Of a stretch of 40,125 nucleotides of DNA, positions 755 through 14,543 are shown piece after piece. Source of the stretch: Candidatus Paceibacter sp. (lineage in GTDB: Bacteria; Patescibacteriota; Minisyncoccia; Phycocordibacterales; BOKC01). Each line of letters opens with the position of its first letter. The stretch's first letter is position 1. The DNA lies in assembly GCA_020724885.1 (NCBI GenBank), contig DYGD01000006.1, positions 1 to 40,125 on the forward strand. The letters are read 5' to 3'. Below the pieces are notes generated by a model that worked only from the letters and a program-made list of their open reading frames with translations, searched no databases and had not been told where the DNA came from. The position numbers and the translations under genes are program-made.

Positions 755-2494
755 ATGCCTCAAGAAAAACTGGAAAAAATTAGGCACTCATTGGCGCACC
801 TTTTGGCGGCGGCGGTTTTGAAACTCTACCCTGACACTAAAATCACTCTAGGTCCGGCGATTGAAAAAGGTTTTTACTACGACCTAGATTTTTCCTCGCA
901 TATATCAGAAAAAGATTTGCCGAGAATTGAAAAAGAAATGAAAAAAATTCTACCGAGCTGGAAAGAATTTTCTCACAAAGAAGTGACAGAAAAAGAGGTG
1001 AGAGAATTTTTTAAAGACAATCCTTATAAATTGGAACTCATTGATGAAATTGTTTCAAAAGGAGAAAAAATCACTTTTTACACTTGCGGAGAATTCACTG
1101 ATCTCTGTCGGGGTGGTCATGTTGAAAATCCATCTAAGGAGATAAGCCCGGATGCTTTCAAACTGGACAGAATCGCCGGCGCTTATTGGCGGGGCGATGA
1201 AAAAAATAAAATGCTCACCAGAATCTACGGATTGGCATTTGATACAAAAAACGAACTTGACGAATACTTGAAACAAAAAGAAGAAGCCGAAAAAAGAGAC
1301 CATCGAAAACTCGGAAAAGAGCTTGATTTATTCACATTTTCAGACCTGGTAGGTTCTGGTCTGCCGTTATTTACTCCAAAGGGCACGATTTTAAGGGAAA
1401 GGTTGGATGCATTTTCTCAAGATTTAAGAATCTCGCGGGGATTTCAAAAGGTCTGGATTCCGCACATAACTAAAAAAGACTTGTATGTAAAATCAGGGCA
1501 TTGGGCCAAGTTCGGCGAAGAATTATTTTTGGTAAAAAGCCAAGAGACAAAAGATGAGCTTGTGATAAAGCCGATGAATTGCCCGCACCATCAGCAAATC
1601 TATGCTTCAAAACCCAGAAGTTATAGGGACTTGCCTATTCGCTACATTGAAACCACCACCGTCTACAGAGACGAAAAAGCGGGAGAGCTTTTGGGCCTCT
1701 CTAGAGTGCGTTCTATTACTCAAGACGATAGCCATATTTTCTGCACTCCCGAACAAATCAAGGAAGAATATCAAACATTGGTAAAAATAGTAAAAGAATG
1801 CTACGACAAACTTGGAATGAAATTTAGAGCTCGACTTTCTCTTCATGATCCAAATCAAAAAGAAAAATACCTGGGAGAAGAAAAATTGTGGGAAAAAGCA
1901 GAAGCGATTTTATTGGAAGTGGTAAAAGAAAACAAATTAGATTACTACTTAGCTGCCGGTGAAGCGGCTTTCTACGGACCTAAGATTGACTTTATGATCA
2001 CAGACGCTATAGGTAGAGAATGGCAACTCGCCACTCCCCAACTTGATTTTGTCCAGCCGGATCGCTTCGGATTAAAATATACCGACAAAGACGGCGCAGA
2101 AAAAACACCGGTTATGATTCATTTCGCGCTTCTCGGTTCATTAGAAAGATTCCTTTCGGTTTATATTGAACATACCGCCGGCGCTTTTCCTTTTTGGCTC
2201 TCGCCCGTTCAGGTCAAGATCCTGCCGATTAGCGAAAATCACATTGAATATGCAAAGCAAATCAACCAAAAACTCAAGGAGGGTGGCATTCGTTCTGAAT
2301 TAGACCAAAGCAATGAGACCCTGGGCAAAAAAATCAGGAATGTCCGAATGGAAAAAGTTCCCTATTGGCTCGTCATCGGCGACCAGGAAAAAAGTAGTGG
2401 AATGGTAAAAATTGAGAGCCGAGACCGAGGTGATCTTGGAAGTTTGGAATTAGAAACCTTAATCAAAAACCTGAAAAGAGAACAATCTGAATAG
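755..2494 (+). CDS. thrS: Threonine--tRNA ligase, lacking the TGS domain
   Basis: Charges tRNA-Thr with threonine in the cytoplasm. The protein has 579 aa against about 640 in E. coli. It starts directly in the N2 editing domain (HSLAH near residue 11, CRGGHV near residue 120, the zinc-like editing-site residues), so the usual N-terminal TGS domain of about 60 residues is absent. The class II catalytic core follows: MNCPHH (MNCPGH in most ThrRS), motif 2 around YRDEKAGEL, TQDDSHIFC, FYGPKIDF, and motif 3 GSLERFLSVYIEH. An anticodon-binding domain completes it (PVQVKILPI onward). The start is fixed by the promoter 12 bp upstream and by alignment to the editing domain. The gene is monocistronic on the plus strand and faces the convergent gene ending at 2507. 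Confidence 0.97.
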   Translation: MPQEKLEKIRHSLAHLLAAAVLKLYPDTKITLGPAIEKGFYYDLDFSSHISEKDLPRIEKEMKKILPSWKEFSHKEVTEKEVREFFKDNPYKLELIDEIVSKGEKITFYTCGEFTDLCRGGHVENPSKEISPDAFKLDRIAGAYWRGDEKNKMLTRIYGLAFDTKNELDEYLKQKEEAEKRDHRKLGKELDLFTFSDLVGSGLPLFTPKGTILRERLDAFSQDLRISRGFQKVWIPHITKKDLYVKSGHWAKFGEELFLVKSQETKDELVIKPMNCPHHQQIYASKPRSYRDLPIRYIETTTVYRDEKAGELLGLSRVRSITQDDSHIFCTPEQIKEEYQTLVKIVKECYDKLGMKFRARLSLHDPNQKEKYLGEEKLWEKAEAILLEVVKENKLDYYLAAGEAAFYGPKIDFMITDAIGREWQLATPQLDFVQPDRFGLKYTDKDGAEKTPVMIHFALLGSLERFLSVYIEHTAGAFPFWLSPVQVKILPISENHIEYAKQINQKLKEGGIRSELDQSNETLGKKIRNVRMEKVPYWLVIGDQEKSSGMVKIESRDRGDLGSLELETLIKNLKREQSE

Positions 2495-8532: not shown

Positions 8533-10716
<2,184 letters not shown>

Positions 10717-11292: not shown

Positions 11293-12429
11293 ATGGAAAT
11301 AAAAATTAACTCGGAAGAAGAAAAACAATTAAAAGAAGAATTGGCGAAAAGATCCGACCCCGAAGCTCAAAGAATGCTACGGTTCCTTAATATGCCGGAT
11401 TTATCAAGAACCTCCAAAAACCCGTTAGCCGAATTGGCGGAAAAAATAAAGGCAATGCCGGATTTTAAAGATTTTGACGAAGTAGAAGCGCCGGAGATTG
11501 TCTCAACAGCAATCAGTTTTGATTTGTTCAACTTTGCGCCTAATCATCCCGCCCGTTCACGTTCCGATACTTATTTTGTAGATGACAACAATATTCTCCG
11601 ACCCCATACCACTGTTATGTGGTATTACCATCTCAATCAGCCGGAGATAAAAGAAAAAATCGCTCGCGGGGAAAGTGTCGGCGCTCTCTCTCGCGGCAAG
11701 GTCTATCGCAAAGACGAAATTGACCGCAATCATATGAACATTTTTCACCAAATGGACGGCTGGTTTCTATGCCGAAGAGAAGAAAAAATTATTGATAGAA
11801 GCGACTTGGAAGACATTTTGAACAAAATTGTCAAAACAATTTTCGGTCCCGATATTGAGTACCGCTTTAATCCGGACACATTCCCTTACACAGACCCGAG
11901 TTTAGAAATTGAGGTAAAAATCGGAGACAGATGGATAGAAGTTTTGGGCGCCGGGGTTGTCAGCGGAAAAGTTTTAGAAAATTTAGCCGTTGATTCAAGT
12001 GTTTGGAGCGGTTGGGCTTTCGGTTTCGGTTTGGAACGACTGGCGATTTTAAGCATGGATTTGCCTGATATTCGCCTGCTTTGGTCTGAAGACGAACGGG
12101 TAAAAAAACAATTAAAACTCGGACAAAAGTTTCAGGAGGTTTCCAAGTTCCCGCCGGCCCCGCGCGATATTTCTTTTATCGTCCCAAAAACTTTCGTGCC
12201 GAATAATTACTTTGACCTTATCCGCGACATCGGCGGAGATTTTATAGAAGAAGTTGAGCTTTTGGACAAATACGAAAATGCCGACAAATTCGGCACGGAT
12301 AAAACGAGCTATACTTACCGGATTGTTTATCGATCAATGGAACGAACACTGACTTCTGAAGAAGTTGAAACAATCCACAAAAAAATAGAGGAAGAAACAA
12401 AAAATCAGTTTGGCGCTGAGATTAGGTAA
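11293..12429 (+). CDS. pheS: Single-subunit (mitochondrial-type) phenylalanine--tRNA ligase
   Basis: Charges tRNA-Phe. The product has 378 aa and contains a PheS-like class II catalytic core: HPARSRSDTYFV near residue 90, motif 2 GKVYRKDEIDRNHMNIFHQMDG around 155, and motif 3 SGWAFGFGLERLAILSMDLPDIR around 245. This is fused to a C-terminal ferredoxin-fold anticodon-binding (FDX-ACB) domain, residues about 290-378 (FPPAPRDISFIVP, DLIRDIGGDFIEEVELLDKY, YRIVYRSMERTLTSEEV). In most bacteria FDX-ACB is at the end of the separate PheT subunit. The one-chain layout, and the C-terminal wording, match mitochondrial PheRS (FARS2). No pheT follows: the next features are tRNA genes. The ATG is nearly leaderless. 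Confidence 0.93.
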   Translation: MEIKINSEEEKQLKEELAKRSDPEAQRMLRFLNMPDLSRTSKNPLAELAEKIKAMPDFKDFDEVEAPEIVSTAISFDLFNFAPNHPARSRSDTYFVDDNNILRPHTTVMWYYHLNQPEIKEKIARGESVGALSRGKVYRKDEIDRNHMNIFHQMDGWFLCRREEKIIDRSDLEDILNKIVKTIFGPDIEYRFNPDTFPYTDPSLEIEVKIGDRWIEVLGAGVVSGKVLENLAVDSSVWSGWAFGFGLERLAILSMDLPDIRLLWSEDERVKKQLKLGQKFQEVSKFPPAPRDISFIVPKTFVPNNYFDLIRDIGGDFIEEVELLDKYENADKFGTDKTSYTYRIVYRSMERTLTSEEVETIHKKIEEETKNQFGAEIR

Positions 12430-12587: not shown

Positions 12588-12610
12588 GCCTGTTCATCCC
12601 GTTAGAAGTG

Positions 12611-12683
12611 AGCCGGAGAGAGGACTTGAACCTCCAAACCTTTCGCTTACAAAGCGATTGCTCTACCATTGAGCTACTCCGGC
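12611..12683 (-). tRNA. tRNA-Thr (anticodon TGT)
   Basis: 73 nt without encoded CCA. Acceptor GCCGGAG pairs with CTCCGGC; D-arm GCTCAATGGTAGAGC; anticodon loop TTTGTAA with anticodon TGT; T-arm GGAGG-TTCAAGT-CCTCT. The anticodon stem has one mismatch at its base. It reads away from the tsf/rpsB operon on the same strand. Confidence 0.9.
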
Positions 12684-13170: not shown

Positions 13171-13752
13171 TTAAACGGAAAATCTGACAAATCTTCTTAC
13201 TTCAATTTTTTCGCCGAATTTCTGAATGGCCGACTCTATGAGCTCTCGGACTTTGAGTTCCGGATTTTTAATAAACGGCTGTTCCAGAAGAATTTGCTCG
13301 GCAAAAAAAGCGTCTAGTTTGCCGGACAAAATTTTTTCTTTCAAATCTTCCGGCTTGCCTTCAACTTCTTTGGCAAAAACCTCGCCAGCTTCTTTTCGAG
13401 CTCCCTCGCTGATATCGTCCTTTTTCAGATACTTCGGAGAAGAGGCGGCTACTTGCATCGCCAAATCATAAGCCAAATCTTTGAATTCTTTATTGCCGGC
13501 AACAAAGTCGGTTTCGCAATTCAACTCCACCATCGCGCCAACGCTGGCATTGGAATGAATATAAGAAGCTACAACACCGGCATTTAATTCTCGATCGGAC
13601 TTTTTGTCAGCCACCGCCTTACTTTGTTTTTGGAGAACAATTTGAGCTTTGCTCATATCACCCCCCGCTTCTTCCAAGGCCTTTCGACATTGCATAATTG
13701 AAACGCCGGTTATATTGCGCAACTCTTTGACTTGTTCAGTGCTTATTGACAT
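13171..13752 (-). CDS. tsf: Elongation factor Ts
   Basis: Guanine-nucleotide exchange factor for EF-Tu. The product has 193 aa, near the short end for EF-Ts (283 in E. coli). The N-terminal UBA-like domain has the family signature ELRNITGVSIMQCRKALEEAGGD (residues about 11-33). The core has GVVASYIHSNASVGAMVELNCETDFVAGN near residues 60-88 (the TDFVA motif contacts EF-Tu). The C-terminal part is compact (GEKIEVRRFVRFSV). It lies downstream of rpsB, the usual bacterial order. Confidence 0.96.
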   Translation of the reverse strand: MSISTEQVKELRNITGVSIMQCRKALEEAGGDMSKAQIVLQKQSKAVADKKSDRELNAGVVASYIHSNASVGAMVELNCETDFVAGNKEFKDLAYDLAMQVAASSPKYLKKDDISEGARKEAGEVFAKEVEGKPEDLKEKILSGKLDAFFAEQILLEQPFIKNPELKVRELIESAIQKFGEKIEVRRFVRFSV

Positions 13753-13817: not shown

Positions 13818-14543
13818 CTACTCTGCTTTATCAGCGTCTGATTTTACTTTTTTCTTACCGGCGACGACCGCGTCAACAATCTGCTTCACAAAAAATTCTA
13901 TACTTGAAACGGCAGAGTCATTTGCCGGAATCGGGAAGTCGATTTCTTTCAAATCACAATCAGAATTAGCCAAGGCAACTATCGGAATCTTCTTTCTTCT
14001 GGCTTCAGACACAGCTGTTTTTTCTTTTCGAGGATCAACGATAAAGATAGCTGCTGGAGGTTTTTTCATAGAAACCAGACCGGAAAACATCTTCTCCAGT
14101 ACTTCTATTTCTCTGTCCAAAAGCAATCTTTCTTTTTTTGTATATTTAACCAGTTCGCCTTTTTCTCTTTGCTCTGAAAGTTCTTGCAATCTTTCCACCC
14201 TCTTTTTTATTTCAGAAAAATTGGTGATGGTGCCGCCAATCCAACGATTCTCCACAAATGGCATCTCGGATGACAGAGCGCCACTTTTGACAACCTCTTT
14301 GGCTTCGTTTTTCGTTCCGACAAAAAGTATCTGCTTCCCAGAAGCAACCGTGCTGTCTACAAAATCTTTGGCAGCGGCAAGCATGGGCGCCATTTTTTCC
14401 AAATCAAAAATTTCCACATTATTCTTTGAACCCAAGATAAATTCCTTGGTGGACGGATGCCTTCTTGATTTGGAGTAACCATAATGAGCCCCCACTTCAA
14501 AAAGGCTTTTTATATCAATTTTTGTATCGGCTTTTGTTGGCAT
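13818..14543 (-). CDS. rpsB: 30S ribosomal protein S2
   Basis: Component of the small ribosomal subunit. The product has 241 aa, full length for the family. Signatures: LFEVGAHYGYSKSRRHP near residue 14 (usual GxHxGH; here HYGYS), FVGTKNEAKEVV, ENRWIGGTITNF near residue 107, and FIVDPRKEKTAVSEARRKKIPIVALANSDCDLKEIDFPIPANDSAVSSI near 165-215. It is the first gene of rpsB-tsf, 65 bp upstream of tsf and 61 bp downstream of prfA. A TATTAT box lies 14 bp before the ATG. Confidence 0.97.
   Translation of the reverse strand: MPTKADTKIDIKSLFEVGAHYGYSKSRRHPSTKEFILGSKNNVEIFDLEKMAPMLAAAKDFVDSTVASGKQILFVGTKNEAKEVVKSGALSSEMPFVENRWIGGTITNFSEIKKRVERLQELSEQREKGELVKYTKKERLLLDREIEVLEKMFSGLVSMKKPPAAIFIVDPRKEKTAVSEARRKKIPIVALANSDCDLKEIDFPIPANDSAVSSIEFFVKQIVDAVVAGKKKVKSDADKAE

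Follow-up and report, generated by a model that had tools for sequence, protein, structure and literature searches.

Introduction

The usual bacterial phenylalanyl-tRNA synthetase (PheRS) is a large, two-part enzyme with a proofreading domain, whereas the small single-chain PheRS is the textbook form for mitochondria only. The bacterial (alpha-beta)2 enzyme consists of PheS, which carries the catalytic core, and PheT, which carries the B3/B4 editing site and normally ends with the B8 (FDX-ACB) domain. The mitochondrial enzyme (human FARS2; PheRS-M of AARS Online) is one chain of PheS core and B8 without an editing domain; FARS2 undergoes a large hinge motion (PMC3275996, PMC9976931) and stably attaches tyrosine (PMC3275996). 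The roles of the pocket residues F258/F260/V261 in PheRS have been described, and Thr at the T235/V261 position, the state found in FARS2, has been linked to tighter tyrosine binding (PMC3275996).

Here, we analyzed a contig of 40,125 nucleotides (hereafter, the window) from a tiny, uncultured member of the Patescibacteria (assembly of 592 kb in 18 contigs, 92.8% complete), in which a first-pass annotation had noticed a mitochondrial-type, single-subunit PheRS. Very probably, this protein (P0001) is the cell's working PheRS, has the one-chain FARS2/PheRS-M build, and is part of a patescibacterial clade whose genes took the place of pheST beside gyrB and moved repeatedly between lineages, and which shares an ancestor with mitochondrial PheRS. 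This view rests on the sequence, the predicted fold, the lack of pheT throughout the genome, the mutual exclusion of the single-chain gene and PheT, synteny, and the phylogenetic tree. The single-chain build is already known, and the NCBI mitochondrial model already captures some bacterial members (e.g., L029). In the open literature that we searched (subscription journals and bioRxiv lay outside the search), we found no description of a single-chain PheRS in CPR/Patescibacteria, and its role as the only PheRS of a bacterium seems not to have been described.

Results

The P0001 ORF is intact from ATG through stop and encodes 378 aa (Table 1). As annotated, the catalytic core and the FDX-ACB domain lie in one chain (PF01409, 180 bits; PF03147, 84 bits), the PheS-type class II core being followed directly by B8. 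P0001 shares a homologous core and B8 with PheS-PheT, but lacks B1-B7, the B3/B4 editing site, and the PheS coiled coil. Across 27 P0001 homologues, the arginines of motifs 2 and 3 are invariant, as are FHQ and the F-P-x-T pocket; the motif 2 region presumably binds ATP and the amino acid. In the alignment, FPYT of P0001 corresponds to F258/F260/V261 of the Thermus enzyme and F232/F234/T235 of FARS2, these positions reading F/Y/T in P0001. P0001 departs from the pocket in having Tyr for F260, which is the state of eukaryotic cytosolic PheRS, and Asp for the conserved Glu after FHQ (Gly in many sisters). Since relatives reaching 87% identity are present in dozens of genomes, the ORF is not a chance product.

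Table 1. Features of the single-chain PheRS locus (window positions, except for the contig 14 gene).
Feature	Position	Strand	Basis
thrS-like threonyl-tRNA synthetase, conserved neighbourhood	755..2494	+	
gyrB, conserved neighbour	8533..10713	-	pheST adjoins gyrB in related genomes
Single-chain phenylalanyl-tRNA synthetase P0001, 378 aa	11293..12429	+	Intact ORF, domains, homology, model
Class II catalytic core, PF01409 tRNA-synt_2d, PheS-like CAM	11398..12111	+	Residues 36-273, 180 bits
Motif 2 region GKVYRKDEIDRNHMNIFHQ	11695..11751	+	Residues 135-153; invariant residues in 27 homologues; aligned to FARS2, PheS
Phenylalanine-pocket motif FPYT	11881..11892	+	Residues 197-200; alignment with FARS2, PheS; roles from PMC3275996
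Motif 3 WAFGFGLERL	12013..12042	+	Residues 241-250; conservation among homologues
FDX-ACB anticodon-binding domain, PF03147, B8 of PheT	12142..12426	+	Residues 284-378, about 84-85 bits, model 1-94 in full
tRNA-Thr (TGT), convergent with the synthetase gene	12610..12683	-	tRNA match
tsf (EF-Ts), conserved neighbourhood	13171..13752	-	
rpsB	13818..14543	-	
SrmL gene, contig 14	L217:4559-5815, contig 14 about 37.6-38.8 kb	-	NF051887 381.6 bits, cut-off 300

The C-terminal domain had been described as FARS2-like in wording, and the quoted words do align with FARS2: IGGDFIEEVELLDKY of P0001 with IGGDLVEKVDLIDKF, and YRIVYRSMERTL with YRITYRHMERTL. P0001 is 40% identical to FARS2, and 47% identical in the B8 domain. 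Over the full length of P0001, FARS2 was the best match in both sequence and structure. When P0001 was searched against PDB sequences, human FARS2 scored 207 bits and the best bacterial PheS 124, and the control, a two-subunit PheS of a relative within its order, gave the reverse (bacterial PheS, 248 bits; FARS2, 103 bits). The AlphaFold model of P0001 (pLDDT 90.2, pTM 0.85) shows the FARS2 fold, and its top seven Foldseek matches were FARS2 over ~390 columns, followed by PheS chains matching the core only. P0001 and FARS2 both lack an editing domain and have Thr at the V261 position. In contrast to FARS2, the P0001 gene is bacterial, chromosomal, and located beside gyrB, Tyr replaces F234, and the bacterial single-chain enzymes form a separate clade (98/93), most tested members of which score below the cut-off of NCBIfam TIGR00469 (pheS_mito). 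Because P0001 itself reaches 230.6 bits, under the cut-off of 258.35, we do not assign it to the organellar equivalog; it is mitochondrial-type in build and kinship. The sister L029 clears this cut-off (263.3 bits).

No pheT follows P0001, in line with the annotation; tRNA-Thr, tsf, rpsB, and prfA lie downstream on the other strand. Elsewhere in the genome, profile searches with PF01409, TIGR00472, PF03147, and PF03483 found no pheST pair and no separate pheT. TIGR00472 matched only the P0001 C-terminus and a 128-aa frame at model positions 35-125 (the N-terminal OB-fold region), and PF01409 gave, besides P0001, another single-chain protein encoded on contig 14 and one weak match. The B3/B4 editing domain (PF03483), predicted to be missing, had no match in the genome, whereas all 14 control genomes were positive. 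The assembly does have real gaps, as seen from its 92.8% completeness and from tRNA-Phe, which was not among its 36 tRNA matches.

The single-chain enzyme was found in 35 of 381 sampled Patescibacteria genomes (about a tenth of the phylum) and in 30 of 148 genomes of the window's order; the two sets share four genomes, which leaves 61 distinct carriers (hand counts from tables). The PheT core was absent in 61/61 carriers, so that neither the window's genome nor the 60 others contain a complete pheST, and PheT was present in nearly all other genomes (Fisher test on the hand-counted phylum set, p about 2e-41). Incompleteness therefore does not explain the absence of pheT, and an assembly-gap artefact in the window's genome is unlikely. 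In the 35 phylum carriers, two of which were fragmentary matches, the TIGR00472 matches did not go beyond about 1e-33, a level typical of B8 domains; this set was scored without match positions, and a very short PheT could escape there. In the 30 order carriers, TIGR00472 matched at C-terminal positions 620-798 (mostly 690-798), inside the single-chain protein, and otherwise only occasional N-terminal OB-fold fragments. The original wording, a mitochondrial-type enzyme "in a bacterium", is an understatement: single-chain PheRS is a real, widespread bacterial clade spanning several orders and classes of Patescibacteria. A search with the family alignment found no P0001-type carriers among viral contigs; the phage and plasmid matches were ordinary PheS or SrmL (see below). 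In four Patescibacteria genomes that are 90-98% complete (G343, G328, G194, and G291), these models detected no convincing PheS, PheT, or single-chain PheRS, which reflects either gaps or very divergent enzymes.

Of 80 relatives retrieved in the similarity search, 64 had gyrB next to the single-chain gene, as did 43 of a further 52 loci in other genomes; where gyrB was not scored, the flanks were often short. In pheST genomes of several classes, pheST lies upstream of gyrB on the same strand, with gyrB 3' of pheT. Among the 107 single-chain loci with gyrB, 67 show this pheST-like, co-directional position and 40 are divergent from gyrB, as in the window. Because the single-chain gene usually sits in the gyrB-adjacent slot held by pheST in other Patescibacteria, pheST was replaced in place. 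Additionally, four genera (g3, g334, g365, and g368) contain both types; recombination between gyrB-linked alleles therefore fits better than one ancient loss.

According to the first-pass annotation, a complete pheST pair elsewhere would make P0001 a paralog. No such pair was found in the assembly, but contig 14 holds another single-chain PheRS-like gene, encoding 406 aa, which the annotation missed. Its product belongs to NCBIfam NF051887, "PheS-related mystery ligase" (SrmL), for which P0001 scores 249 bits and remains below the cut-off. SrmL shares with P0001 the single-chain build and the side of the tree. However, all eight SrmL copies compared (L217, L088, L090, L091, L118, L179, L180, and L182) carry His in place of F258 and Glu in place of the invariant pocket Gly (HPYT, LExG), whereas P0001 retains both Phe and Gly. 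The SrmL pocket is shared by the window's genome and by plasmids of actinobacteria and Azotobacter; a copy on a 635-kb phage reads HYYT.

We also found two-subunit PheRSs with a PheT of 396-439 aa in G177, G239, and G231 (the last from another class), in which B5, a core-like part, and B8 are kept and B3/B4 are gone. Like P0001, they have lost the editing domain, but they are still two genes with PheS of the ordinary bacterial type. Since such short PheTs exist besides the single-chain enzyme, editing was lost in more than one way in Patescibacteria. At L145, L146, L164, and L161, a PheT of ~400 aa without B3/B4 has as its neighbour a short PheS that lacks the coiled coil; L161, truncated at a contig end, is only a candidate for B3/B4 loss.

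In the tree of the catalytic core, one branch (99/95) separated 20 PheS proteins from a group made up of 40 single-chain enzymes of bacteria, FARS2, and SrmL, and the B8-only tree gave the same split weakly (89/78). When core and B8 were combined with 29 two-subunit PheRSs of several phyla, including alphaproteobacteria, the split had support of 100/99, the P0001 core falling outside the PheS clade, and 100/100 after removal of SrmL and four long or odd rows. The phylogeny that the annotation had proposed thus joined Patescibacteria and FARS2, apart from the two-subunit enzymes; the trees are unrooted, and human FARS2 is the only sequence on the mitochondrial (and eukaryotic) side. AU tests rejected joining FARS2 with alphaproteobacterial PheRS (p = 0.0004) or with E. 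coli/Acinetobacter PheRS (p 0.013), and did not reject placing FARS2 outside the bacterial single-chain and SrmL group (p 0.33). The short PheS proteins of the window's order were ruled out as the source of the single-chain enzyme, as they sit in the ordinary bacterial clade. In the core and B8 tree, a plasmid pheST from Azospirillum sp. B510 (pAB510a, L226) fell with the PheST of Patescibacteria and not with that of alphaproteobacteria; its letter make-up is odd and its placing unsure.

Discussion

For P0001 as the working PheRS, we infer catalysis, a monomeric state, a domain swing, and mischarging. By homology, the adenylate would form from phenylalanine and ATP in the class II core, which would then pass the activated phenylalanine to the end of tRNA-Phe. 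The C-terminal B8 domain would read the anticodon, presumably after a large closed-to-open swing as in FARS2. As the genome contains no B3/B4, mistaken Tyr-tRNA-Phe would not be hydrolysed by PheRS in this cell. Against P0001 as the working PheRS weigh its NCBIfam scores below both cut-offs, the two pocket departures, and the gaps in the assembly.

Alternatively, P0001 could be a paralog with another substrate, phenylalanine being charged by SrmL or by a pheST that the gaps in the assembly hide. Two single-chain PheRS-like genes do coexist in the window's genome, and in three genomes that are 92-97% complete, G392 (L090/L219), G448 (L088/L220), and G458 (L091/L221), the searches found no PheRS-like gene other than one of SrmL type, which in G448 stands beside gyrB in the PheRS slot. 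However, the phenylalanine pocket is kept in P0001 (FPYT, LGAG) and altered in the contig 14 protein (HPYT, LEAG), the 60 other genomes with a P0001-type gene lack pheT and nearly all lack SrmL, and a genome of the same genus (G493) has the P0001-type gene without SrmL. We consider this alternative highly improbable.

The origin of the clade can also be read differently from common descent with FARS2. A deletion between PheS and the B8 of PheT within a pheST operon could have produced the single-chain build independently in Patescibacteria and mitochondria, the likeness to FARS2 being convergence. The exact position of the gene in the pheST-gyrB slot is what an in-place deletion would leave, and PheT shrinkage is graded in Patescibacteria, down to the short editing-less PheT beside a short PheS. 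Still, convergence is quite unlikely given that core and B8 each group with FARS2, that both AU placements of FARS2 with two-subunit enzymes were rejected, and that the local short PheS falls outside the single-chain clade. Another possible source is a eukaryote (mitochondrial PheRS) or a giant virus, from which Patescibacteria would have acquired the gene before passing it among themselves. Organellar-type PheRS has been reported in giant viruses (PMC11304981), so that mobile copies exist, and the distribution across Patescibacteria is patchy; the breadth and diversity of the bacterial clade, its presence in several classes, and its native operon slot make such a source doubtful, as judged with a single eukaryotic sequence in the trees. 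Returning to shared ancestry, the tree split and the AU rejections suggest that the fused enzyme probably had one origin. A more tentative possibility, which we do not favor at present, is that mitochondrial PheRS came from a bacterial single-chain PheRS and not from alphaproteobacterial pheST, with the patescibacterial enzymes as its living relatives. If so, eukaryotes acquired an already fused, editing-free PheRS, which ultrasmall bacteria continue to exchange today.

A natural bacterial clade with only a monomeric-type PheRS breaks the mitochondria-only rule and is directly relevant to the question, still unsettled, of where mitochondrial PheRS came from. It also offers small soluble models for FARS2, a human disease enzyme, and intact cells possibly living with no proofreading by PheRS. 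As the change of type took place within genera, closely related lineages lend themselves to studying what editing loss costs.

In G000 and G143, SrmL is supernumerary, but in G392, G448, and G458 it may act as PheRS. Two plasmid copies (L179 and L181) lie near antibiotic-resistance genes (chloramphenicol efflux; erm(X) and tet(65)). One idea is that plasmid SrmL serves as a spare synthetase that resists an inhibitor, which would fit these neighbours.
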